A stretch of DNA of 64,000 nt. Source: Methylobacter tundripaludum SV96 (lineage in GTDB: Bacteria; Pseudomonadota; Gammaproteobacteria; Methylococcales; Methylomonadaceae). Below the pieces are notes generated by a model that saw only the letters and a program-made list of their open reading frames with translations, made no database searches and was not told where the DNA came from. The DNA lies in contig NZ_JH109152.1 in the NCBI RefSeq assembly GCF_000190755.2, positions 372,001 through 436,000 of the forward strand. Reading direction: 5' to 3'. Shown here in pieces: positions 6,901-35,774 of this stretch (positions are counted from its first letter, which is position 1; each line of letters starts with the position of its first letter). Made by a program: the position numbers and the translations under genes.

Positions 6901-7698
6901 TATTTCTCTTTGGTTTGCTCAGACCAAGTTTCAGGAGATGTTGCCGCAAAGTTCCTTGAGCAATTTTCGCTTAAAACTCGTCACCGCTGGGATAAACCAT
7001 CGAAAGGCTTTGTGATGAAGGACATCTATCCGTGGCGGTTCGGCAGAAGATTGTCATTTGTAACTCGTCCGATTCTGAAAGTAGACGGAAGCGATGATCC
7101 CCTATTGCTTATTGCCCCTGCTGCACTTCGAAAGGGTTTTGCTTATGTCGTTGATGGAACTCATAGTGGCCGCTTTGACCAGTCCTTTTTTCAGTCCGAC
7201 GAAATGAAAAACTCTTGGTGGGGTAAAGCAAGCGAAGGTCATAGCTTCAATGCAGAGGTTGCGCAACGTTTATTGGATGCTGGTTGGCAGATTTGGGAAA
7301 ATATTGAAATTCCAGAAATCCTCAATCAAAGGGCAGAACAGGACTTCGGAGATGTCGATGTCCTTGCCTGGAGGACGGATCGACAAGACGTTTTGGTAAT
7401 TGAATGTAAAGATCTGTCGTTGGCTCGAAACTATTCAGAGATTGCGGCGTTGCTTTCCAGTTTTCAAGGTACAGATGTTGATGGAAAGCCTGATAGTTTA
7501 AAAAAACACCTGATCCGCGTTTCTATTCTTGAACGAAATATTGAAAGACTTCAACGATTCACAGGCATTCACGAACCAAATATCATTTCGTGCCTTGTTT
7601 GTAGTGGAGTGGTGCCGATGCAGTACTCAAAAATTGAAACTTTATCTAAGACGCATGTTGGCTCGGTCGACGATCTCCTTGTACTCTATAGTTGTTAA
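3901..7698 (+). CDS. Large protein of unknown function with C-terminal PD-(D/E)XK nuclease-like domain
   Basis: 1265 residues starting at ATG 3901; an upstream ATG at 3885 is in another frame and stops after a few codons. Most of the length is unfamiliar to me, with no membrane segments or P-loop. Near the C-terminus there is a restriction-endonuclease-like signature: an upstream helix (FNAEVAQRLLDAGW), FGDVDVLAW with Asp about residues 1151-1153, then VLVIECKD with Glu 1168 and Lys 1170, the D-x15-ExK spacing of PD-(D/E)XK nucleases. Such domains occur in restriction, repair and anti-phage proteins. It stands alone as one module between dispersed repeats in a defence-rich island, which suggests defence, but no family name can be given from sequence alone. 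Confidence 0.65.
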   Translation: MSHDDANIDWKTLKLFFDEQTRWASLSVTIQEIADDNKSLVRDLSVYDPSITIPLLAGLLTLPEYQSQCIRLETLVTLAVIFCKGRKKPKIDNAVRWFFQIGRSRCAVGEDPAEDVFVSLVTDRNGNYRLIEGVWEAAGFYTQRVLEVVSTMPDAGEFRRIKKSFLALLMISEMVCQKAELHRYTLGSDERHSALSLRKLPGRNALISRVTISFEELNERGITKADITPFLFDHHMQDSLVEQQIGCSDLDRHPLILRSETHISVALPSALSVAARDFAITHIIEGGLVDGFNSVLAKNYTALLSNTPILGGPTHAPVFWKELKPHRLSTFTFEVDRGYFISYHLFLASVETHADGGFKTAYEDKGALTDALQESISCAIDQFSQRPEFKEGLIVLVGCGWGKGYVTQEIEVNHPKWRFESMSAADLVRLSWLGDMNPSYFWRIQDGLKAVTKSGVRIVNPNGILNLIGWVRSNDGHFVPHAQLLDEEVSPEQPLMLNLPINLLRGVRAEADLGYDRHCAVDNTGVWHDVQHLGPNPFFTSESARRLYASMDDALHGMLTSVYEGKFQLWLSLETPNISDREIAFRLWEMANEWLHRIGSKLDRYAGHQTKTTNIKVHVEFQDIDPPKEPGQKPKADDLSQFCIVNEHDEPNAIKAVFKAGFLNGFGIAENVAERLFVLNVSRAFLHLLNATDIEGEAEEITRNVVQNQEARSFHVIHAHHFIDYVHDTLTEKLVFIDEIDDAAAKIGLGWRVCDRVQGNKIEGREACTNFLEKVVDALIADICEILVSFERISTLNRLVANSEKASVEADQWKRTSAAIIGLHGQVDTTIQRYVKETSKFAGAGIASRVLIEMAVCVCPLNNGTQLSDIELSKLIARASLLVRIGGLSDAIHYNALPPELTISSLGDVLFRDDFGDLVVQPMLSRVLGEKFIANAPLQKKNYDEPVFTSTSKGQIDEEFWCVWKGEMGFDLDEARNIIDSLENKGVTDHSAIYSISQSEYFSLVCSDQVSGDVAAKFLEQFSLKTRHRWDKPSKGFVMKDIYPWRFGRRLSFVTRPILKVDGSDDPLLLIAPAALRKGFAYVVDGTHSGRFDQSFFQSDEMKNSWWGKASEGHSFNAEVAQRLLDAGWQIWENIEIPEILNQRAEQDFGDVDVLAWRTDRQDVLVIECKDLSLARNYSEIAALLSSFQGTDVDGKPDSLKKHLIRVSILERNIERLQRFTGIHEPNIISCLVCSGVVPMQYSKIETLSKTHVGSVDDLLVLYSC

Positions 7699-22255: not shown

Positions 22256-23077
22256 TTACAAATTCTCCGCATTTAGCAGAATGACTTCAATCTCTTCGGT
22301 AATTTCTTCCTGGCGATAAATCTGGGATTTTCTTTGCAGCTTTACGGTTTCATCATCCAGATGATTCACCGCGCCTTCCAGATGTTGCAGCCGGCTGTGA
22401 TTTTCGGCCATCAGCGAGATATAAAAAATTTCATGCAGCACGGCAAATAAGTAATGATCGAGCAAGTCTGCAAAAAACTCGCCGGGTGCCAGATTGAGTA
22501 CCGGCGGGTTGCCATAATGAAAGGTTCTCTCATTTGGCTGATTAAACGGCGGAAACACCTGTCGCTGGCTGATCTGATTGGATGCGTTATCGTGATAAAC
22601 AACGGTCAGCTGTAATGTAGCGGTAGATTTGCCGTGCAATGCGCTGATGGTGTCAATCAGGCGGTTAATGATCGTAGGCACTTCTTCGGCGACATTAGCG
22701 CCTTCGAGCGTCGCGACGACTTCGGTGGCAATGTCCTCCTGCCGGTTACAAAGTCGGCTGCCGATCGCAATAACGCCGGTATACGCTTTAGCGGCGACGG
22801 CATTAATCAGGCTTTCGTTAAAATCGCCGCAAAAACCGCGTTCTGCGCCCAGCAAAATACAGAGTTGCGCGGCGTTATTATCAGCCGCCAGGCCTGGATA
22901 AAAATCCAGAAAATCCAGCGCCGCGCGTTCGATATTAGCCACGGCTTGCCCTTGCATGGTTTTAAAACGCAGCAGTTTGTGGATTTCGATGAAAGCCAGG
23001 TTTTTCATCGAATTTAAAATGCTGCGTATCTCTTTTAACTGGGTGATATGCAGTTGCAGTTCGCGGCTTAAGCTCAT
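22256..23077 (-). CDS. atpG: N-ATPase gamma subunit
   Basis: 273 residues. The long N-terminal helix ([20 protein letters not shown]) and the C-terminal helix that together form the rotor stalk are recognisable, as is [19 protein letters not shown], equivalent to the conserved GLCG.lN segment of F1 gamma. Last gene of the minus-strand operon atpD-C-Q-B-E-F-A-G, overlapping atpA by four bases. In the complex it couples c-ring rotation to the catalytic alpha/beta hexamer. Divergence from housekeeping AtpG is normal for N-ATPases. Confidence 0.85.
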
Positions 23078-24636
23078 GACGGTGGTGCCGGGTTGACGTT
23101 AATCCATTCGCCGAGCGCTTGCCGCCACTGCTCCTGGCTGCTTTCCAGCGTCAGTGTCGCGGCTTTAATACCCTGCTCAATGCGAACCAGAATCTCGGCA
23201 ATGTCTTCAGGATCTGTCTGGTTAAACAGCCCTGCATTAAACGCGGTCAGCCAGGCCAGTTGAAAAAGGTTGCTGTGCGGAACCAGTCGATCCTGTTTCA
23301 AGATTTCCCGCAGCAGCCGACCCCGTTTGATTCGCGCTTCCATTGACGCTTCCAGACGCTGGCCGAAACGGGTGAAGGCTTCCAGTTCCAGAAATTGCAG
23401 GTAATCCAGTTTCATTTGCCCCGCTTGATCGCGGATGCTGATGTCCTGGGCATTGCCGCCTATCCGCGATACCGATCGGGTGATGTCGATGGCCGGACGA
23501 AATCCCGACACGAACAGGTCGTTATCCAGATAGATTTGCCCGTCGGTAATGGAGATTAGGTTGGTCGGAATGTAGGCGGCAATTTCGCCCTGTTTGGTTT
23601 CGATGATCGGCAAGGCGGTCATGCTGCCGCCGCCGTTTTCGGCATTCAAGCAGGTCGAGCGTTCCAGCAGGCGCGAATGGACAAAGAAAATGTCGCCCGG
23701 ATAGGCTTCGCGGCCCGGCGGCCTTCGCAGCAACAAAGACAGTTCCCGATAGGTTCGGGCATGGGTAGACAAGTCATCGTAAATGATCAGCGTATCCCGG
23801 CCCTGCGCCATCCAGTATTCGGCCAGCGCACAACCCGCAAACGGGGCGATATATTGCAAGCCGGGCAGGGCGCTGGCTTCGGCAACCACGCACACCGTGT
23901 AGTCCAGCGCGCCGTGTTGCTTCAATGTTTCCAGGGTGCTGACCACGGCAGAGCGCTTCTGACCGATCAGCACGTAGATGCACAACACATTTTTGCCTTT
24001 TTGATTAATAACGGTGTCGATGGCAATTGAAGTCCTGCCCAGACCTTCATCGCCGACGATCAATTGCCGTTGTCCTTTGCCGATCGGAATCAGGGTGTCG
24101 ATGATTTTTATGCCGGTGTACAGCGGCTTATGGACAAAATCACGGGCGATAATCGCGGGCGAACCTTTTTCCATGTTTTCGCGCCCTGCATGGGGTGGTG
24201 AAGCGAGTCCGTCCAGCGGCGTTCCCAGCGGATCGATAACCCGGCCCAAAAATGCGTTGCCGACCGGTATGCTGAGCGAGTGTTTGGACAGATGAACCGT
24301 GGTGCCTGCAGTCAGGGCTTCGGTTTCATACAGTAAAATCGCGCCGATTCGGTCCCGGTTAAGGTCGAAGACCATGCCCCGGCTGCCGTCGGCAAAAACC
24401 AGGATGTCCTCGATAGCCGCGGACGGCAAGCCTTTGATCCAGCTGATGCCGTCGCCGATGGAAACCACCGTGCCTTGTTCGATAATACGCAGCCCCGGCA
24501 GATAGTTAGCCAGCCACTCGGCCTGTTTGTCCAGTAAGCTGTCCATCGGCGCCGGAGCGGCATCGGCTGCGTTCTCACGCTGGAGCGTGGGAACGATGAG
24601 CGCTGCATCATTCCGGTTCATTGGCAATCTCGGCAA
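23074..24636 (-). CDS. atpA: N-ATPase alpha subunit
   Basis: 520 residues from ATG 24636. The core is canonical: [20 protein letters not shown], Walker [45 protein letters not shown]. The Walker A has Arg where many enzymes have Lys (GLGRT). The alpha subunit carries the non-catalytic nucleotide site. The first 30 residues are odd: codons 14-21 read through a REP palindrome (24571-24594). A second in-frame start at MDSLLDKQ (24546) lies directly after it and would give a conventional N-terminus; the 24636 start overlaps atpF by 29 bp. Which is used is open. Confidence 0.9.
24571..24594. repeat. REP palindrome inside the atpA reading frame
   Basis: GTTCTCACGCTGG then AGCGTGGGAAC, the same REP type as those flanking the RAYT gene at 45.3-45.9 kb. 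It is read in frame as VPTLQREN if atpA starts at 24636. Confidence 0.75.
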
Positions 24637-25357
24637 AACCGGTCAGTTCGTGTTGCAGGTTGGCGTTTAGCACCCAAGCGCCGATGTCCATGCGCAGACC
24701 GGCGATCAGCGCTTTATCCTGATGATATTGAAAATTGATTTGACTGTTGATTAACGCATCCAGCTTTTGTTCCAGTTGTTGGCGCATTTCAATGGGTAGC
24801 GGATAGGCGCTGGTTATTTTGACAGGCACCGATTTTTTAGTGCCGAACATGGTCAGGCATAGCTTGCAGGCTTCCGGCAAGGTTGTTAGGTTGTCTATCA
24901 GCAGGGTAAATAAGCGGGCTTCCAGCTCACAACCGGCGGACTGCTGCAACAGCATTCCGGCAAATTTGGCGCCGTTTCGCAAGGCCTGTTTTTCCGCTTG
25001 TTGTTGTAACTCGTGTCGCTGTTTCGACAGCACCACGTTGGCTTTTTGCCGCTCTTGCTCAAGATCGGCATTCAGCTTGTCCAGGTGGGCTTTTCTTTCG
25101 GCTTCGAGTTGCCGGTGCAGGGCGGCGATAGCGGCCTGTTTTTCTTGCTCCCATAGCTTTTGCCGATTTTCATAACGGCTGCATTGTTGTTCCGCCTGCT
25201 GTTGCAGGTTTTTTGCGTCGCTAAGCGATTGATCGATAAACTGCTTACGCTTGGTAATCACTTCCAGCAAGGGCTTGTAAAAAAGTCGCTGCAAAATCCA
25301 GATCAGAATCAGGAAATTGATGATTTCAAGAACAAAGGTGGATAGGTTGAATTCCAT
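24608..25357 (-). CDS. atpF: N-ATPase b-type subunit (alternate AtpF with delta-like tail)
   Basis: 249 residues, longer than a plain b subunit (about 156). One N-terminal membrane helix ([19 protein letters not shown]) is followed by a long charged coiled coil rich in Gln, Glu and Ala (about 35-125). The C-terminal ~110 residues end like a delta/OSCP domain ([20 protein letters not shown]). N-ATPase operons have no separate atpH, and this b-delta hybrid forms the peripheral stalk. ATG 25357 is the natural start. Confidence 0.85.
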
Positions 25358-25400
25358 ATGCTTTATTGCCGGTTTAGGTGTTGACTCAGCAGTTGAAAAA

Positions 25401-25493
25401 ATGGAACGCAGATGACGCTGATAATTATGATATATAGGATTTTTATCGAATTATCCGCGTTTATCATATTGATCTGCGTCATCTGCGTTCCAT
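25401..25493. repeat. Palindromic element between atpE and atpF (1)
   Basis: ATGGAACGCAGATGACGC and its complement at the far end form a long perfect stem extended by GAT/ATC pairs over 93 bp. It could fold in mRNA between the c- and b-subunit genes. With the second element it fills the 333-bp gap 25358-25690; no gene is seen there. Confidence 0.75.
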
Positions 25494-25533
25494 TGTGTTT
25501 TGTGGCTGAGTAGTTACAGTGTGTCTCGGCAAC

Positions 25534-25637
25534 TTGCTCCTGCGTTGCTCTATCTCCTGCATAATCCACATGGATGTGGTGAATGCAGATATTGCACGAC
25601 TGTATGGATACAGGAGGTAGAGTAATGCAGGAGCAAT
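25534..25637. repeat. Palindromic element between atpE and atpF (2)
   Basis: TTGCTCCTGCGTTGCTCTAT near the left end pairs with the complement of GGTAGAGTAATGCAGGAGCA at the right end; a smaller palindrome (CCACATGGATGTGG) lies between. A different family from element 1, inserted next to it. Confidence 0.65.
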
Positions 25638-25690
25638 TACCGAGGAGCAAATATCTGTCCATGCAGCCTTCGTGGTGAATTCTTTTCGAA

Positions 25691-25957
25691 TCATTTAAGA
25701 ACGTATTCAAGCAACGGGTTTCGAAACAGCACAATCAAAATAATAACCAGGCAATAGATAGCCAGTGATTCGATCATCGCCAGGCCTATAAACAAGGTGC
25801 GCATAATCGACTGTTCCGATTCCGGTTGCCGCGATAAGGCTTCCAATGCGCTGCCGATGGCCTTGCCCATGGCCAGGGCCGGGAGCATCACTCCCAGCGC
25901 GATGCCGATAATAGCAGCGACGCTGGAGCCAAGGACGATTAAGGCAATGTCAGACAT
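25691..25957 (-). CDS. atpE: N-ATPase c subunit (rotor ring)
   Basis: 88 residues, two membrane helices joined by the conserved polar loop SRQPE. The second helix carries AMIESLAIYCLVI with the ion-binding Glu followed by Ser and, four residues on, Tyr, as in Na+-type c subunits. In the first helix, aligned by the RQP loop, LPALAMGKA has Met where Na+ rings such as that of Ilyobacter carry Gln and many N-ATPases carry Glu. So the sodium site is only partly conserved and ion specificity is uncertain. It is followed 3 bp after the stop of atpB. Confidence 0.9.
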   Translation of the reverse strand: MSDIALIVLGSSVAAIIGIALGVMLPALAMGKAIGSALEALSRQPESEQSIMRTLFIGLAMIESLAIYCLVIILIVLFRNPLLEYVLK

Positions 25958-25960
25958 AAG

Positions 25961-26626
25961 TTACTCCGGTGGATTAAGTTGTTGGGATTGTATGGCTCCG
26001 GCCACATAGATCAGCGCCAGCATGCCGAAGATATAGGCCTGTACCAGCGCTTCAATGATATGCAGCATTAAAATCGGAATCGGCGCGAGAAATCCTGCCA
26101 CCAGCAATATTAGCACTGCCGCCATTTCCAGGCTCATCATGTTGCCGAATAAACGGATAGCCAGCGCCAGTGTGCGGGTAAATTCGCTGATAATGTGAAA
26201 AGGCAGCAAAATCGGACTGGGGCTCAGGTAGTGGCGCAGATAGTTTTTCAAGCCTTGGGTTTTTATGCCAAACCAATGCACTGATAAGAACACCAGTATC
26301 GCCAGTGCCGAAGTCACTGAAAGATCACGGGTCGGCGAATGCAAACCCGGTATTAAACCGACCAGATTGGCAATGATCAGAAACAGCCAAAGGGACGCAA
26401 TAAAAGGCATGATTTGTCGCCCGTGTTCCGGTGCGACGGCGGCAATGGCCTCGTCGATAGCCACCACAATGCCTTCAACTGTGGTCTGCAACTTACCGGG
26501 CAGCATGTCCAGATGTCGGGTTGAAAGCCAGGCTATTACGGTAATGACCAGCATGATTCCCCACGTGGTGATGATCGAGGTACCTATATCAACCGGGCCG
26601 AGAGCAAAAGTAAATTCGTTTTCCAT
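25961..26626 (-). CDS. atpB: N-ATPase a subunit
   Basis: 221 residues with five or six membrane helices. LALAIRLFGNMMSLEMAAVL contains the essential Arg that faces the c-ring, and ALVQAYIFGMLALIYVAGA is the conserved final helix. It forms the two half-channels of the ion path. It lies 8 bp after atpQ, the place where atpR stands in the usual N-ATPase order (D-C-Q-R-B-E-F-A-G). Confidence 0.92.
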   Translation of the reverse strand: MENEFTFALGPVDIGTSIITTWGIMLVITVIAWLSTRHLDMLPGKLQTTVEGIVVAIDEAIAAVAPEHGRQIMPFIASLWLFLIIANLVGLIPGLHSPTRDLSVTSALAILVFLSVHWFGIKTQGLKNYLRHYLSPSPILLPFHIISEFTRTLALAIRLFGNMMSLEMAAVLILLVAGFLAPIPILMLHIIEALVQAYIFGMLALIYVAGAIQSQQLNPPE

Positions 26627-26634
26627 AATCCAAC

Positions 26635-26895
26635 CTAATCTTTAATCAAAAAATACACATTAAAAATCCCAATCACCAACCCGGCAAACAATAAACTGAG
26701 TGTCCAATGCGTCGAATATCCCTCCACCCTATCGTCCAACCAGTGTCCTAAATAAACGCCGCCGATAATAGGCAATATCATGACCAGGCCCAGTGTGCCG
26801 ATTGATGGCAGATTCGGTCGAGGTTCATGTCCCGCTTTTTTGATGCGTTTGACTTGGCGCTCAACCTTGTTTTTGAGTTGTTGTCGATTATTCAT
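26635..26895 (-). CDS. atpQ: N-ATPase AtpQ (AtpI-like) small membrane protein
   Basis: 86 residues. A basic N-terminal stretch (KNKVERQVKRIKKAGHEPR) precedes two membrane helices (LGLVMILPIIGGVYLGHWLD and TLSLLFAGLVIGIFNVYFLI), the AtpI/AtpQ hairpin. Such proteins help assemble the c-ring. The start overlaps the end of atpC by four bases. Confidence 0.82.
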   Translation of the reverse strand: MNNRQQLKNKVERQVKRIKKAGHEPRPNLPSIGTLGLVMILPIIGGVYLGHWLDDRVEGYSTHWTLSLLFAGLVIGIFNVYFLIKD

Positions 26896-27302
26896 GACTG
26901 CCAGCTGGTTTTACGTTTAAGCATTAACATGCGTTTTAACATGGCCTGTTCCATTCGGTGCAGACTTTCTCGGGTTGCATGCAGATTTTCTTCCTCGGCT
27001 ATCAACTGCTGTTCCAATAAGGCACTGATCCGTTCGAAGTCGGTGTCGATCAGGAAATGCCGGGTGCTGATCGTCAATTCATTGTTGTTGAAGTAGGCAA
27101 CCGCTCCCGGCAGCGCCAGATATTGCCAATCTTCTGTGGCCAGACGAAAACGCGCCAGACCGAAAACCAGCGTAGTCATAAACCGCGCATGATGGGCTTG
27201 GATGCCGAAGCTGCCTGAAGCGTCCTCGCCGACAAAAGAGGTGACACCTGCGATGCGTTGTTCGTGGCTGGCATCGAACAGGTTCAGTACGAATTGGTTC
27301 AT
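26892..27302 (-). CDS. atpC: N-ATPase epsilon subunit
   Basis: 136 residues from ATG 27302 (MNQFVLNLFDASHEQ). A longer frame up to 27350 would add residues encoded by a palindromic repeat and is rejected. The beta-sandwich domain (GSFGIQAHHARFMTTL, ...AYFNNNELTISTRHFLIDTD) and the C-terminal helical pair rich in Glu, Met and Lys are typical. It regulates ATP hydrolysis and joins gamma to the c-ring. 165 bp separate it from atpD, filled by a palindrome. Confidence 0.85.
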   Translation of the reverse strand: MNQFVLNLFDASHEQRIAGVTSFVGEDASGSFGIQAHHARFMTTLVFGLARFRLATEDWQYLALPGAVAYFNNNELTISTRHFLIDTDFERISALLEQQLIAEEENLHATRESLHRMEQAMLKRMLMLKRKTSWQS

Positions 27303-27319
27303 CCAGGAAAAACCATTTT

Positions 27320-27449
27320 GTCCACGAAAAGCACGAAATACACTAAACAAATCATTATGTTGTGCTGCATCAGCGATTCAACCTTTGTGTAACAACCTGC
27401 GGCATAGCGTTTTTTGAACATTTTCGTGCTTTTCGTGTCTTTCGTGGAC
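27320..27449. repeat. Palindromic element between atpD and atpC
   Basis: GTCCACGAAAAGCACGAAA at the left pairs with TTTCGTGTCTTTCGTGGAC at the right over 130 bp. It lies between two genes of one operon and would form a large hairpin in the message. Confidence 0.75.
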
Positions 27450-27467
27450 GATTCGCTGTTTTTAGGT

Positions 27468-28904
<1,437 letters not shown>

Positions 28905-28917
28905 TTAGTAGTCTACT

Positions 28918-29430
28918 TTTACCACGAAGACATGAGCGACTACAAGAATGAAGGATGTAGATCCACGCAGGAGCAGTGTGCGGGTTGTGCTGGTTCCCAA
29001 TCTCCAGATTGGGAACCAGGATGCGAAGCTCCAGCTTCGCGAGACGGGAAGCTGGAGCTTGGGAACTAGCGAAGTGTCTGCGAGATACCCTCGTTCCCAC
29101 GCGCCGCGTGGGAATGCAGTGCCGGACGCGCTGCGTCCCGTATACGGCGTAGCGCGCCTTGACCGCATTCCCACGCAGTGCGCTCGCGTTATACACAAGT
29201 ATCTAAGTAACGCGTCATACCCGCCGGGAAGCGGGTATCCAGTGCCATGGATGGCGAGCTGTATACGTCCATGTAGCCTGGATCCCGGCACAAATCCGTC
29301 TGGAACGGATTTGCATTAACCCAAAGGGTGTCAGGCAGGATAGCCTGATATGAATCCCTGCCGGGATGACGTGCTTTTCAATACTTATGTATAACGACGA
29401 GAGTTTGAGCTTGGGAACTAGAGAATCTTC
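28918..29430. repeat. Block of REP and palindromic repeats upstream of the N-ATPase operon
   Basis: The 562-bp gap 28878-29439 is a mosaic. It includes GGTTCCCAATCTCCAGATTG palindromes with the GAAGCTGGAGCTTGGGAAC variant near 29000-29070, a CGTTCCCACGCG-type REP near 29090, and a palindromic unit 29213-29371 whose ends read CGTCATACCCGCC and CCGGGATGACG. Several overlapping open frames here are repeat translations. No gene is supported. Confidence 0.7.
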
Positions 29431-29439
29431 AAGAAGTTA

Positions 29440-31389
29440 TTACCGACTTTTCGTAGGCATGATGACACGGGAACAGGCGGCGCTTAATTCCAGATAAACA
29501 TCTTCAGGCCTTGTTTCGTAACGCCTTGAGAAATGGAATGGCACCAGTTGTTTGACATCTGCGGCGCTTGCAATCTCGCCGCAGGCCCGCGCCGTCAGAT
29601 GGCCGGTTCTTTGTGCCTGATCGATGTCGTCTTCCAGAAAAGAAGCTTCGCAAAAAAAGAAGTCGGCCTTGTGCGCCAACGCGGTCAGGGCGGCGCGGTT
29701 GGGTGCCGTATCGGCCAGATCGGTCGCATAGACCAGATTTTCGCCGGGCGTGACGGTAAGGAGGAGGGCGCCCAGTCCTCCCGCCTCCCGGCTGCTGTTA
29801 TCGGGCAGCCGGATCATCGCTGCGGTATCGCCTGCGCCGATGACCCGTTTCAGTTCATTCAGCCAGGGCCCGGCATCTAAGCCCAAGGTTTTGAGAGCGT
29901 TATTATCGACGTTGAATTTGGCCTTGCTCTCAAAGGCATAGGCCTGCACCGGCGTGTGGTGATCCAGCGTGACCGTGCGGACGGTGAACTGCGGATCGTC
30001 CACGATCAATCCTTCGGCAAATTGAATTTCGGGGAGATCGACGCAATCCCCGCAGCCCGTCTGAATATGAGCCCGTTGCAGCCGGTTGCCGTGGATTTCG
30101 GCGATTTCGAAACGCGGCCCCGTATCTCCGATGCGATCCCAAAGGACGCCGTCGATCATGCCTTTAATATGGCCGATCAAACCCGGCGGGCCGAAAATCC
30201 GGCAGCTTGGAAAATCGCCGACCCGGGAGCGCAGCAGCCACAAGAAGCCGCCGATATGATCGATATGGGCATGGCTGATGAAAACGTCGCTGACTTGATG
30301 GGCGATGCGGGTGGACAATCTGCCCGAATCGCCCAGGTCGAACAGCAGGCTGCGTTGCTGCTGGTGCAGGCGCAGATGCAGCAGCGGGTCGCCGAACACG
30401 CCGTTGACCATCGTCGCGTACATGCCGCGCAATTTGACCGCAGGCCTGGGCCCGCCGCTGTAATCCGTCGCCGGGTAGGGCATCGCGTCGGGCGGCGGCA
30501 AAAATTGCAGGTTGCCGGATGCAAACGGCGCGGCGCTGACCAGCAGGCCGTTTTTGTCGCAACGGGCATCGCGCACCAGCAATGTCCGGGTCGTTGCCGC
30601 AGCCGTAGGCAGCCGGATATGAAGTTTACCGTCTTGCAGCGTGATGATCTCGCCGATGCTGACGGTTCGCTCGGTATCGATAAAGGCGCATTGGCGGCCG
30701 GTCCAGGCATCCGGCACATCGATGGGCGGCGGCGAGCCGATCACGCGAAGATCGGCAAGGTCGAGCGTTATCTCGTCGGCGACGGCGAGGTAAGTCCGCC
30801 ATTGCCCGGTTCTTTTGTGCGCCCTGGTCTTTTGGCTGGGACGGCAGGCCTCAGGATGGGCATGCACCGGCAGGATGCGGACGCCCAACGACAACAGTTC
30901 GTTCATTAACGGCAGCGGTTTCGACTGGCGATTCAGCAGCAATACGGTATCGATTTCCAGCAGTTCGACCATGCCGGTCAGCAATTCCGAACCCGCAATG
31001 CCCCGGACCACGCCGGGGGCGTCGATCAGCATCAAGCCCAGGGGAGCCTTTTGCATTAACCGGCTGACAGCCGATAGCAGCGGCAGGCGAAAACGGCCTG
31101 CATCCAGCGTGCAAAGCGCTTCAAATGCCGACACTTGCCAGCCGGACTCCCGCCACTGTCCCAGCGATACGGTGCCGGGCAAACCGAAGCCGGGCGATCC
31201 GGGATCGGCGGCGATGCAGAAGCAGCTTAGGCCTCTTTCGGAAAATATCCGCGCGAGTTCGGCAGTCAGCGTGGATTTGCCGATACCGGTCTCGCCAAAC
31301 AGTAAAATCCTTTGCCCGCCGCTCAGCAGTTGCTCGGCGAGGCTTGAAGGGCAGTAGGGCAATAACGGGAGTGGCGCTGGATGAGGCAT
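29440..31389 (-). CDS. Clp1/Grc3-type polynucleotide kinase fused to RNase Z-type metallo-beta-lactamase
   Basis: 649 residues from ATG 31389. The first half is a P-loop kinase: Walker A GETGIGKST at residues 32-40, then IAADPGSPGFGLPGTVSLG, which is the Clp1/Grc3/Nol9 signature, and LMLIDAPGVVRG as Walker B. The second half is an RNase Z: SHAHIDHIGG with HxHxDH at residues 373-378, TLDHHTPVQAYAFE, YATDLADT, CEASFLEDD, GHLTARACGEIA and PFHFSRRYET, so all metal ligands and the terminal HFSxRY motif are present. Family members phosphorylate 5'-OH RNA ends and cut RNA 3' ends respectively; having both in one chain suggests an RNA cut-and-mark or repair enzyme. The 61 extra codons up to 31572 run through repeats and are rejected. 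Confidence 0.85.
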   Translation of the reverse strand: MPHPAPLPLLPYCPSSLAEQLLSGGQRILLFGETGIGKSTLTAELARIFSERGLSCFCIAADPGSPGFGLPGTVSLGQWRESGWQVSAFEALCTLDAGRFRLPLLSAVSRLMQKAPLGLMLIDAPGVVRGIAGSELLTGMVELLEIDTVLLLNRQSKPLPLMNELLSLGVRILPVHAHPEACRPSQKTRAHKRTGQWRTYLAVADEITLDLADLRVIGSPPPIDVPDAWTGRQCAFIDTERTVSIGEIITLQDGKLHIRLPTAAATTRTLLVRDARCDKNGLLVSAAPFASGNLQFLPPPDAMPYPATDYSGGPRPAVKLRGMYATMVNGVFGDPLLHLRLHQQQRSLLFDLGDSGRLSTRIAHQVSDVFISHAHIDHIGGFLWLLRSRVGDFPSCRIFGPPGLIGHIKGMIDGVLWDRIGDTGPRFEIAEIHGNRLQRAHIQTGCGDCVDLPEIQFAEGLIVDDPQFTVRTVTLDHHTPVQAYAFESKAKFNVDNNALKTLGLDAGPWLNELKRVIGAGDTAAMIRLPDNSSREAGGLGALLLTVTPGENLVYATDLADTAPNRAALTALAHKADFFFCEASFLEDDIDQAQRTGHLTARACGEIASAADVKQLVPFHFSRRYETRPEDVYLELSAACSRVIMPTKSR

Positions 31390-31607
31390 GGCGGCTACCT
31401 GTGCTGGATAGTTTGTTACTATCGCAGAAAACCATAGCTGGTGGCAATTATGACAATAGAGATTGCTCACAGGCTCAACCCGACCCATAGCAGTCAGACG
31501 TGACTGATGACCGGCTAGTATTTTCAGGCATTGTTGGCGCCCTTCGAAGTTTAGTTCCCGCAGAACATCCAAAGGGATAGCTAGCCGGTCGTGCTAGTTG
31601 TCACGTT

Positions 31608-34343
31608 TCATTTAAGGTTGTATCGAAGCTCGCGCTTTCGGAAGGCTTCGTCGCCACCTTCTAGAATCCGACGAACCGCATGGTTAGTTATGGATGACTC
31701 CAGGCTCCCTGAAGTGTATTTCAGCACTCCATGGATATTCTCGGCCACCACTATCTGCTCTGCGTCTGCGTTGACAACTAGGTTCGCATTGTGTGTGACG
31801 AGTATGACCTGCCGAAATTGTTTAATCCCACGAAAAATATCGACTAGTTCCTCAATAATGAATTCGTTATCAAGATCATCTTCCGGTTGATCAAAAATCA
31901 GTGGCTGAGTGAACGTCTGAGTTGCAAGTTTTAGGCAGAGATAAACGGTTCCTTTTTGGCCGACAGACAGGCGTTCTAATGGTCGTCCGCCATATGTAAC
32001 CACCGGTTCGACACGAAGAAATGCTGATCGCTGTGCGACATCATAAAAAAGTTCAGCAAGGTTGCCAGAAACGAATCCTTCCTCCTCGGTCTTATGCAGC
32101 CGATGCTTCATAAACCTCAAGAATGACCACAGGTCATTAATTTTGAACTGCTCTCGGATACGATCCTCTATGGAAAGCTCGTTCGTCGCACGGAATGACC
32201 TCAAATTCAAAACTTCTTTGAGCTTCGCGATAAATATCTGTATGTCAAAAATGATGCGTCCTTCGAGGGAGATTTCACGATCAGCGAGGATTCGCTTCAT
32301 CAAGTCCTTCTGATCCGGCGTCCAATCTGGTTGGCCTTGCTGGATCGTTTTCCATCTGGCATCAATCGTCTTTTTCTGACGATGAAGCTCGTGTGCAATG
32401 AGCCTTGGAATCGTTTTTTGTTTGGCCACAGCAGCGTTGAGTTGCTGTTGGTTCTCCATAATTGTCAAAAGCCTAGCCTTGAGTTTCTCAATGGCGCTTC
32501 TGTAAGCCTCGGCGTTCTGTAGTAGGCCTGAAAGATCCCCAGTATAGACCTGCGCGAAATCGGCGCGGATTCCGGTATTGTCGACTTCGCAGATAGCCAC
32601 ATTCTTAATCGCCTGCTCAACTAGAAGACTAATGCCCTCCAACTGTGCAGTGATATCGAGAGAAGGAATCGCGTTATCAACTAGGCTAGCCTTTTTGTCG
32701 AATTCATCCTTGTATGCCTTAAGTTCTTCATTCAGGAGATAAAGACGACGTACCTTGTCTGCCGCTACTTCCATCTTCGAAATATTTACAGTAAAGCGCT
32801 CCAGCTTCTCTTGGTTTTGTTCAGTTGTTATCGATTCGAGGAGGCTTTGGTACCTGCCGATCTGGAATTCAATGCTTGCTTGATCATGAATCAATTCACC
32901 TTTTTCATCATTCTGTTTGAACCACGCTTTGTGTTTATCAACATTAGACCGGAACTCTCGAATCTTGCTGTCCACATCGCTGTCAAACGATAGACCTTGC
33001 ACCCCCAGCATCTGTTTGATTTCGTCGCCGACAGTTCCGGTCGTAACCTTCGTTTTAACCTCATTCTGTGAGATATAGACGAAGGGAAGCTCTGCACCTT
33101 CTTTTGCATTATGTATAGATGTGCTAACAATATCCTTATTGAAAACTACAGAGAAGTTGCCATTCAGAACATATGGTGTCGTTTTGGATACTGGGCCAAA
33201 TGCCTTTCCTAGATAATCAACCAGAGAACTTTTACCCGTTCCACGCCCACCAATAACACAAACAAGATCACTGTTCAGTGGGAGTCCCGGCAGCGTATCA
33301 AAACGAGGGTTCTCATAATGTGGGTTATCTGGAAATGGCGACATCTCGTGAGTGATCGTAACCGAGCTCACGAATGGCTTTGTGTAGCTTATTCCAGGAT
33401 TTGTCTCCTGCACTCGCACCCGCGCTATAGGTTCAAAAATGATCTGCCGGAGCCCCTCAAAAGTAGGATCTGCTTTAATCCACGTTTTTCTTGTATTGGT
33501 TTCCTTCCTCCAAGTCTTGAATCCTTCGATGGAATGACCGTCACTTCCAGAAACACATGGCTTTGGTCGCCCCCCAATAGAAATTTGAAAGTTTTCGATG
33601 AATTCTTGGTTTGCGGGGGTTTTTCGGCCCGCAAATAGTTCGATGTTCTCTTGCTTCCTCTCTTCGAAAATGTCTCCCAGTCGTAGGAAATAGAGATCTT
33701 CTGCCATTTGAGCTTTCCAGTCGATGCTTTCTGCGCCACCGAAGCAATCATAAGGAATCATCACCAACCGCTTGTCTGCCGGAATCATTTCCAACGCTCT
33801 AACAAAAGACTCTTTTGTTATCTCTGCTGTTTGAGCACCGATCTGAAATAGCTTTTCTGGATCATTTTTGTAGCCTTCAACCGCACCATGTCGCTTCGCC
33901 TTGGCAGGATCGAGTTCAAGTGCAAATTTTTGTAACGCTTCGTCTGAAAGTGGACGATCGACAAGCCGGACTTTCAATTCACCTTTAAAGTCTTGCAACT
34001 CTTGAATAGTGAGGGTGTCGGACAGGATGACATGAATGTTCAATCTGTGATTCGTAGCTGATTCGATCCTCAACTCGATACCGGGAAACACCGTTTTTTG
34101 AATGTGCTCTCCAGCATCATGAGCAGCGCGAAGTGCTAGATAACCGTCAAATGTCCAATAATCATTGATCGCATAAACAGAGACATAGCTCTCGTTTATA
34201 TTTTTTATAACCTGTTTGATTGCATTAGACTTCTCCACGGAAGTCATTCCTGCGAATCCCCCTCGCTTGAAGTTGTAAGAAGCTGGTGTGTGGATGTGAA
34301 GATCCCACAGCCGCCATTCTGATCCTTTGGGGTAAGCGCTCAT
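31608..34343 (-). CDS. TrlF-type PHP-domain / SMC-like ATPase
   Basis: 911 residues. The N-terminal PHP-type domain begins LWDLHIHTPASYNFK with His 16 and His 18, then VYAINDY and CVSGSDGHSIEGF with Asp and His ligands near residue 270. An ABC/SMC-type ATPase is split around a long coiled coil: Walker A GGRGTGKSSLVDYLG near 365, coiled coil about 440-700, signature LERLSVGQKGTVYL, and Walker B LIFDQPEDDLDNE near 815 with the VILVTHNANLVVNADAEQ His loop. Proteins of this build (annotated TrlF) are thought to act on nucleic acids in repair or phage defence. It lies upstream of the kinase-RNase Z gene on the same strand, about 220 bp apart. Confidence 0.85.
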   Translation of the reverse strand: MSAYPKGSEWRLWDLHIHTPASYNFKRGGFAGMTSVEKSNAIKQVIKNINESYVSVYAINDYWTFDGYLALRAAHDAGEHIQKTVFPGIELRIESATNHRLNIHVILSDTLTIQELQDFKGELKVRLVDRPLSDEALQKFALELDPAKAKRHGAVEGYKNDPEKLFQIGAQTAEITKESFVRALEMIPADKRLVMIPYDCFGGAESIDWKAQMAEDLYFLRLGDIFEERKQENIELFAGRKTPANQEFIENFQISIGGRPKPCVSGSDGHSIEGFKTWRKETNTRKTWIKADPTFEGLRQIIFEPIARVRVQETNPGISYTKPFVSSVTITHEMSPFPDNPHYENPRFDTLPGLPLNSDLVCVIGGRGTGKSSLVDYLGKAFGPVSKTTPYVLNGNFSVVFNKDIVSTSIHNAKEGAELPFVYISQNEVKTKVTTGTVGDEIKQMLGVQGLSFDSDVDSKIREFRSNVDKHKAWFKQNDEKGELIHDQASIEFQIGRYQSLLESITTEQNQEKLERFTVNISKMEVAADKVRRLYLLNEELKAYKDEFDKKASLVDNAIPSLDITAQLEGISLLVEQAIKNVAICEVDNTGIRADFAQVYTGDLSGLLQNAEAYRSAIEKLKARLLTIMENQQQLNAAVAKQKTIPRLIAHELHRQKKTIDARWKTIQQGQPDWTPDQKDLMKRILADREISLEGRIIFDIQIFIAKLKEVLNLRSFRATNELSIEDRIREQFKINDLWSFLRFMKHRLHKTEEEGFVSGNLAELFYDVAQRSAFLRVEPVVTYGGRPLERLSVGQKGTVYLCLKLATQTFTQPLIFDQPEDDLDNEFIIEELVDIFRGIKQFRQVILVTHNANLVVNADAEQIVVAENIHGVLKYTSGSLESSITNHAVRRILEGGDEAFRKRELRYNLK

Positions 34344-34880: not shown

Positions 34881-35774
34881 TTAACTGCCGTGGCTAAAGC
34901 CTATCCCTGCTGCATCGCCTTTTACCGCATGTTCCGCATAATATTCACTGCATTCCTTCTCGCGGCCCCGAACCACCCGCTTGCTGGTTGCAGGGCCTCG
35001 GGTTTCGGTGACGACGGTATGCTGGCCCTCGTGGTGACTGTCATCGTAAAAATTAATCACCACCCAGTCTTTGACGCGATCCAGCTGGTGAGCGCGCTCG
35101 GTATTCGAATATAACGCGGTAAAATGCCAACCCTTCCGGCTTGAATGCAAAATGGGCAGCCAGGCTTCGCCGGTCGGGTTGAAGCGTTTCGGCGCTATGG
35201 TCGGCAGCTCTCCGGCTTGCGCTTTTTTGCGATACTGTTCGTCTATTTTCAACAATAATTCGACCGGCGGCTCTGCAATGGTTTGCTGCGCTTCGAAACG
35301 AGGCCTGCGAAAACCCAGGACATGGGCAAGCCAGGTTTGCACCAAAGCGATTTTTTTGGTGCTGAAGCCGGGGACTTTGTTTAAGCGGCCGTTATGCGCC
35401 GCCAGTTCCAGGGCTTCCAGGGTGTCGATATGCAGCGTTTCAATGATCCGGTGCGCCGATCTGGGGCCGATGCCCGGAATCTGTTCGAATAATGCGATGG
35501 GATCATGACCTGACTGCAAGCTTTCCAAGCGGCTCATGCGCCCGGTCATCACGTATTCGTTAATGGACCTGGCAATGCCTTCGCCGATTCCGGGCAGTTC
35601 CAGCAACGCCGAAAAACCCTCGCGGCCCAGTAAATCCTCGACCGCTTCGGTCATGGTTTCGATGGTCTTGGCGGCATTTAGGTAGGCGCTGACCCGGAAA
35701 GGATTGGCTCTTTGTTCATCCAGTAAATCGGCGATTTGGCGTAATTTCGATGCAATTTCTTTATTGGTTACCAT
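34881..35774 (-). CDS. Helix-hairpin-helix protein related to the N-terminus of PolX-type polymerases
   Basis: 297 residues. The N-terminal ~100 match the PolX 8-kDa domain: LRQIADLLDEQRANPFRVSA, LLELPGIGEGIARSINEY, then a second HhH, LFEQIPGIGPRSAHRIIETL, and a third weaker one, LNKVPGFSTKKIALVQTWL. No polymerase active site (GSxxR, DxD) follows; instead there is a ~120-residue tail with HSSRKGWHFTALYSNTERAH and DWVVINFYDDSHHEGQHTVV. It probably binds DNA without replicating it, perhaps in repair. Stand-alone proteins of this build are known but uncharacterised. Confidence 0.8.
   Translation of the reverse strand: MVTNKEIASKLRQIADLLDEQRANPFRVSAYLNAAKTIETMTEAVEDLLGREGFSALLELPGIGEGIARSINEYVMTGRMSRLESLQSGHDPIALFEQIPGIGPRSAHRIIETLHIDTLEALELAAHNGRLNKVPGFSTKKIALVQTWLAHVLGFRRPRFEAQQTIAEPPVELLLKIDEQYRKKAQAGELPTIAPKRFNPTGEAWLPILHSSRKGWHFTALYSNTERAHQLDRVKDWVVINFYDDSHHEGQHTVVTETRGPATSKRVVRGREKECSEYYAEHAVKGDAAGIGFSHGS

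Follow-up and report, generated by a model that had tools for sequence, protein, structure and literature searches.

A fusion of a Clp1-type polynucleotide kinase with RNase Z in Methylobacter and other Pseudomonadota and its association with RtcA and RtcB

Introduction

In the eukaryotic Las1-Grc3 and TSEN/CPSF73-Clp1 complexes an RNA endonuclease is paired with a kinase of the Clp1/Grc3 type; nuclease and kinase are separate subunits, and the ends that Las1 and TSEN pass on to the kinase carry a 5'-OH, in contrast to cleavage by RNase Z, which yields 3'-OH and 5'-phosphate ends. tRNA and other RNA cut by ribotoxins carry 5'-OH and 2',3'-cyclic phosphate ends, and such ends are sealed by RtcB and RtcA, of which RtcA is a 3'-phosphate cyclase and RtcB requires a 5'-OH. 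To our knowledge Clp1-type RNA kinases are rare in bacteria and are without known biological partners, and no link between an RNase Z and RtcB has been described for bacteria. The closest described bacterial and archaeal relatives, Ts-Clp1 and Ph-Clp1 (PF16575), are known 5'-OH RNA kinases (PMC6777427), and the main text of that paper, by Saito et al., mentions neither an RNase Z nor a lactamase-fold partner of Clp1. RNase Z is defined by the metallo-beta-lactamase (MBL) motifs I-V, an arm carrying the GP motif, and the HEAT and HST motifs; the TM-type RNase Z is without the CCA anti-determinant PxKxRN, and RNase Zs without it are thought to be able to process CCA-containing precursors (PMC3161902). 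Broken tRNAs have been linked with RtcA and RtcB (PMC7790460), and tRNA ligation with operons of archease and rtcB (PMC3973293).

Here we describe a gene of Methylobacter tundripaludum SV96 that, in contrast to the separate subunits of the eukaryotic complexes, places a Clp1-type kinase and a tRNA-end nuclease in a single bacterial chain. A preliminary description, made from the sequence alone, had seen the two halves, knew of no bacterial system of such build, and proposed that one chain could both cut RNA and mark or repair its ends.

Results

The fusion gene lies on the minus strand at positions 29,440-31,389 of the window (the whole 64,000-nucleotide stretch of DNA that was analysed), as a single unbroken frame of 649 residues with an ATG start and with the stop codon within these coordinates. 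A Shine-Dalgarno-like AGGT (31,397-31,400, minus strand) precedes the ATG by 7-8 bases, and the stretch GGTA..GCC-ATG upstream of the start is conserved in other genera; a search upstream of the gene for a sigma-54 (RtcR-type) promoter gave no consistent match. The encoded protein is made up of a Clp1-type P-loop kinase domain (residues 1-212; 30,754-31,389), a domain corresponding to the C-terminal domain of bacterial and archaeal Clp1 (residues 213-300; 30,490-30,753), which is assigned by hhalign and is beta-rich in the model, a linker of low pLDDT and variable alignment (about residues 301-319; 30,433-30,489), and an RNase Z domain of the PRK02126 type (residues 320-645; 29,455-30,432), all encoded on the minus strand. 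The preliminary reading of a kinase half and a complete RNase Z half in one protein is thus upheld by the intact frame and by domain searches in which the Clp1_P and the RNase Z profiles both match. The motifs that it quoted are all present: the Walker A motif GETGIGKST at residues 32-40 (31,270-31,296, minus strand), ADPGSPGFGLPG at residues 61-72, HxHxDH as HAHIDH (MBL motif II) exactly at residues 373-378 (30,256-30,273, minus strand), and both GHLTARACGEIA and HFSRRY in the RNase Z half. The G+C content of the gene is 60.6%, that of the window 49.2%; the excess is shared by 13/13 carriers within the order and hints that the gene has spread horizontally.

The N-terminal part is matched by Pfam CLP1_P with 57 bits (E=3e-15; gathering cut-off 26.6), as are 29/29 fusions at E<=1e-3, and the hhalign match to standalone gammaproteobacterial Clp1 extends over residues 2-272 (prob 99, E 4.6e-18). 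A phmmer search of the PDB matched Caenorhabditis elegans CLP1 weakly, with the Walker motifs aligned gap-free and with K38 and D62 at the positions of the Walker A Lys and the Walker B Asp. The key residues of the domain, Walker A K38/S39, Walker B D62 and lid R189/R193, are well kept: K38, D62, D123, R189, R193, T194 and W197 are invariant in 29/29 fusions, as are D62-P-G and D123-x-P-G, and Walker A GxxxxGK[S/T], which in the fusions reads G32xxGxGK, is kept in all 29 (G32, G37 and K38, with position 39 Ser in 28 and Thr in one). The two lid arginines are spaced RxxxR, compared with RxxxxR in the definition of the Clp1 motifs (PMC6777427), and the same columns hold Arg in standalone Clp1. 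By profile, structure and profile-profile match the N-terminal half is a member of the Clp1/Grc3 family, as the preliminary description had it, and may be active as a kinase. Assignment to an unrelated P-loop family (MeaB, ArsA, SRP GTPases) was considered and rejected, these being weaker in Pfam and fold searches; in a single-sequence PDB search with the N-terminal half SRP54 and ArsA came slightly above Clp1, all scores being weak.

The C-terminal half is matched over residues 323-644 by the RNase Z profiles NF002558/PRK02126 (E=5.6e-78; 262.3 bits, curated cut-off 315) and TIGR02651 (E=1e-30; 106.9 bits, curated cut-off 292.95). Since both scores are below the curated NCBIfam cut-offs the RNase Z half is divergent; phmmer against the PDB matched the RNase Z of Bacillus subtilis and of Escherichia coli. 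MBL motifs I-V are invariant in 29/29 fusions (D351, H373/H375/D377/H378, H477, D557 and H619), and so are Glu581 and His597 of the HEAT and HST motifs, which here read CE[AS]x and HLT. The flexible arm, a predicted tRNA-binding exosite of about 60 residues (around residues 488-548; 29,746-29,928, minus strand), carries GLxPGPWL or, in the present protein, GLDAGPWL, a slight variant of the published GP motif GxPxGP/GxPPGP (PMC3161902), with G507, W509 and L510 in 29/29 fusions and P508 in 28/29. PxKxRN is absent before motif I (residues 320-348), so action on CCA-bearing tRNA would be allowed. To judge from sequence and model, this half belongs to the PRK02126 subfamily and is complete as an RNase Z, predicted tRNA-binding arm included; profile matches, invariant motifs and arm together bear out the complete RNase Z half claimed earlier.

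An AlphaFold model built from 55 locus-derived sequences has a mean pLDDT of 91 and a pTM of 0.64 and was used instead of an earlier model from 13 sequences (pLDDT 74). The pLDDT is lowest about residues 290-310, and with this pTM the relative placing of the two halves is uncertain. With Foldseek against the PDB the top matches of the P-loop half are only Clp1/Grc3 proteins (8hmy_E, 4oi0, 4ohy, 2npi, 7y18, 8puw), with E 1e-14 to 7e-14 for Clp1 8hmy/4oi0 and target TM 0.54-0.57 for the Clp1 structures. For the C-terminal half the matches are the tRNA(Thr) complexes of B. subtilis RNase Z (2fk6, E 2.4e-19; 4gcw, E 6.9e-19; target TM 0.77).

Among the genomes sampled, 29 have a full-length fusion with the same domain order; they span 16 families and are mostly Gammaproteobacteria. 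The order Methylococcales has the fusion in 13 of 301 genomes (12 in family f1, over five genera, and one in f5), the class gave 13 further full-length copies in 12 other families (369 genomes) plus two copies cut by contig ends, and a sample of the phylum (398 genomes) gave three further fusions, of which two come from a family that does not belong to the class. Two loci that appear standalone (L125 and L126) are in fact fusion fragments ending at contig ends. Close copies, 85-95% identical, are in Methylobacter metagenome-assembled genomes (MAGs), and one pattern scan of genome contigs gave only Methylobacter copies because its patterns derived from one sequence. When the RNase Z halves are placed in a maximum-likelihood tree, all fusions fall in one clade (100/100) on a stem of 1.33 changes/site, separate from standalone PRK02126; the two "standalone" rows inside the clade are contig-end fragments. 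The fusion thus arose once and has been kept patchily across Pseudomonadota. Viral contigs (in one pattern scan), phages and plasmids gave matches to the RNase Z half only and no fusion.

In pairs of the Methylomonadaceae type the kinase domain has a dN/dS of 0.21-0.37 and the short middle domain one of 0.18-0.57, compared with 0.13-0.26 in the RNase Z half; purifying selection acts on the kinase half and on the RNase Z half alike. Three Methylobacter relatives carry truncated fusions (L103:7200-8200, L104:380-1300, L105:1-600), each separately shortened. Two of these (genomes G010 and G014) retain only about 215-223 kinase residues, with different end points, the kinase domain being intact (dN/dS about 0.3) and the RNase Z half gone, and in the third (G022) 24 codons remain beside a transposase-like frame. 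The gene is therefore useful yet dispensable. A dispersed repeat containing CCCAATCTGGAGATTGGGAACC lies downstream of the fusion gene at 28,807-29,319 of the window, and a repeat like this one is found at the truncation point in G010 (L103 around 7200-7480).

A conserved operon partner was sought, and the neighbours vary between genera; only rtcA recurs beside the fusion in different families. The upstream neighbour in the window (31,608-34,343, minus strand) codes for a PHP/AAA-like ATPase of the TrlF family (NF045780, 462 bits against a cut-off of 350) that also resembles, less strongly, the anti-phage protein Ppl; as it is absent beside other fusion copies it is placed outside the system of the fusion. 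On the other side the fusion is adjoined by an N-ATPase-type (second F1Fo) ATPase operon (22,256-28,877, minus strand), a neighbourhood kept in several Methylobacter relatives. Further upstream a protein of 297 residues (34,881-35,774, minus strand) corresponds to the N-terminal helix-hairpin-helix part of a PolX-type DNA polymerase, without the polymerase and PHP domains, and is conserved beside the fusion in Methylobacter.

RtcA, surveyed as PF01137 over the 301 genomes of Methylococcales, occurs in 53: in 10/13 fusion genomes, in 15/18 genomes with a standalone PRK02126 and in 28/270 with neither (Fisher p=1.7e-16), the comparison of fusion with neither giving p=1.3e-7. The association persists when genomes are collapsed to genera as a rough correction for kinship (8/9 versus 8/41, p=2e-4) and within the genus Methylobacter (4/5 versus 3/18, p=0.017). 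RtcA is absent from the carriers G008, G159 and G163 and from 11 of 18 carriers tested outside the order. A long archease-type RtcB (>550 bits) was found, among carriers within the order, in 12/13 with the fusion and 18/18 with a standalone RNase Z, compared with 8 of 49 non-carriers, which were hand-chosen and include RtcA-positive genomes; the exception among the fusion carriers (G003) is a MAG that is 89% complete. rtcA adjoins the fusion in two genomes, 35 bp upstream on the same strand in G347 and divergently in G040, and in G354 about 9 kb separate it from an rtcA-archease-rtcB group. No more than these three fusions have rtcA within about 10 kb; RtcA is known in 17 fusion carriers, and if the genes were placed uniformly, three cases within 10 kb would arise with a probability of about 1e-4. 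M. tundripaludum SV96 itself has archease-RtcB and RtcA, at other places than the fusion.

A recurrent cluster in family f6 has, on one strand, a standalone RNase Z followed by a calcineurin-like phosphoesterase, archease and RtcB (L225:5047-9458 and its equivalents L224 and L226-L230); tblastn placed the RNase Z, the archease and RtcB in seven loci, the RNase Z being 2-5 kb from RtcB. This cluster belongs to the standalone RNase Z, which is separated by a long branch (1.33 changes/site) from the fusion clade. Standalone Clp1-type kinases of 283-292 residues (L106-L110; CLP1_P 114-122 bits) were found in genus g20 of the same family, mostly in genomes that also have a standalone RNase Z, i.e., the same two enzymes unfused.

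Discussion

The fusion would represent nuclease-kinase RNA processing by a divergent member of both parent families. With bacterial and archaeal Clp1 it shares the P-loop kinase fold, Walker A, the catalytic Asp and two arginines in the lid region, followed by a C-terminal domain, and it differs in carrying an RNase Z, in the altered clasp Trp and Walker-B Gln, and in an extra LDAxRFRLP block. With the PRK02126 (NF002558) RNase Z / RNase BN it shares MBL motifs I-V, the GP-motif arm, and the Glu and the His at the places of HEAT and HST, and it differs in forming a long-branch clade of its own, in scoring 262 bits against a cut-off of 315, in the absence of PxKxRN, and in the N-terminal kinase module. 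The RtcA-RtcB and archease-RtcB repair operons act on RNA ends, as the fusion is predicted to do, and co-occurrence with the fusion and a common neighbourhood in some genomes tie them to it; on the other hand no kinase-RNase Z member of such operons is described in the papers searched, and the 5' kinase of the fusion would oppose RtcB, which requires a 5'-OH.

As RNase Z leaves a 5'-phosphate, its own products need no 5' kinase, and the preliminary proposal that one chain cuts RNA and marks its own ends fits poorly with products that have 3'-OH and 5'-phosphate ends. The link to RtcA and RtcB means that the genomic evidence points instead to RNA broken elsewhere. It is about an even call that the fusion is a bifunctional RNA-end enzyme that would serve RNA repair or quality control beside RtcA and archease-dependent RtcB, and not bulk tRNA 3' maturation. 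A more specific form of this reading, which we offer tentatively and consider somewhat improbable in itself, is that of a single-origin nuclease-kinase that would handle broken tRNA, or other RNA, at both ends and, together with RtcA and RtcB-archease, would provide a branch in which phosphorylation at the 5' end and cutting at the 3' end divert cleaved tRNA from sealing by RtcB to decay or to another route of ligation.

What is observed extends to family, fold, conservation and co-occurrence, and it is from these that we infer a mechanism. Judged by its family, the first module would phosphorylate 5'-OH RNA ends in an ATP-dependent manner, and the second would bind the T-arm and acceptor of tRNA or its fragments and cut at the 3' end. 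The simplest joint substrate would be an RNA cut by other nucleases that has a 5'-OH and retains the acceptor and T-arm, i.e., a 3' tRNA half or a nicked tRNA. The fusion may take the 3' half bearing the acceptor stem; phosphorylation of its 5'-OH would put this half out of the reach of RtcB, and the 5'-phosphate would leave it open to RNase E-type decay, which depends on such an end, or to 5'-phosphate or alternative ligation, while the RNase Z site could trim or cut off the 3' end of the fragment. The combined order of these events on a broken tRNA is conjecture.

The most serious alternative, in our view unlikely, is ordinary tRNA 3'-end maturation, where the RNase Z half would cut precursors after the encoded CCA or trim extra 3' residues and the Clp1-like half would be an NTP-dependent RNA-binding or regulatory module. 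The active site and the arm of the RNase Z are complete, and in the fusion carriers it is the only RNase Z: searches with TIGR02651 gave no other RNase Z-grade gene in these genomes, the remaining matches having 64 bits or less. For M. tundripaludum SV96 (assembly of 4.85 Mb in 3 contigs) the search for a separate rnz, for which the preliminary description had called, gave only a protein of 299 residues (L002/L003, 47 bits), rejected as a second rnz since it is a generic MBL protein. CCA is encoded in 44/44 tRNA genes found in this genome, which suits an enzyme that, like the RNase Zs thought to process CCA-containing precursors, is without PxKxRN (PMC3161902). However, the Methylobacter genomes tested that are without the fusion have no RNase Z-grade gene and at most a generic MBL protein, and three relatives have lost the whole fusion or the RNase Z part of it, so maturation is unlikely to depend on it; the invariant kinase motifs and the association with RtcA and RtcB also speak against this alternative. 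With CCA encoded in all tRNA genes found and with relatives lacking RNase Z, routine 3' maturation after the discriminator base is unlikely to be the essential work of the fusion.

The chief weakness of reading the N-terminal half as an RNA kinase is that two Clp1 motifs are altered in sequence. In the Walker B motif [D/E]hhQ, as defined for Clp1 (PMC6777427), the Asp (D62) is present in 29/29 fusions and the Gln is replaced, mostly by Ser but also by Asn, Leu or Thr, with P-G in between, and the clasp [T/S/L]xGW reads [A/G/T/S]PG[V/L/M], with the Gly invariant and the Trp absent in all fusions; standalone gammaproteobacterial Clp1 is likewise without the clasp Trp (TSGL). In addition the block LDA[G/A]RFRLP at residues 95-103 is nearly invariant in the fusions and missing from canonical Clp1. 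These changes, and the deAMPylase activity reported for RNase Z (PMC12663964), would suit a protein in which the P-loop half no longer phosphorylates RNA, serving as an ATP/GTP sensor or as a kinase of another substrate, and in which the MBL half has a substrate other than tRNA, e.g., in protein deAMPylation. We regard such a role as distinctly improbable, as Walker A, the catalytic Asp and the lid Arg are all invariant, the best fold matches are RNA kinases and not GTPases, the RNase Z arm is retained, and the context is one of RNA repair. That two adjacent genes were joined by an error of sequencing or assembly has a negligible probability and is rejected, as the 29 full-length copies come from separate assemblies, match both families, have a conserved linker length and invariant catalytic residues, form one clade (100/100) and are under purifying selection.

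Both enzymes are known, whereas the fusion, its single origin, its spread and its association with RtcA and RtcB were not found described in the open-licence literature searched; within that scope the earlier impression that no bacterial system of this build had been described holds. The fusion is a bacterial single-chain counterpart of the eukaryotic nuclease-kinase machines Las1-Grc3 and TSEN-CLP1; its Clp1-type kinase is joined to a tRNA-end nuclease by a covalent bond and to RtcA and RtcB by a statistical association. If it is active, three matters would become testable, namely the purpose of bacterial 5'-OH RNA kinases, the reason why CCA-encoding gammaproteobacteria keep any RNase Z, and the choice of the cell between sealing and discarding a broken tRNA.
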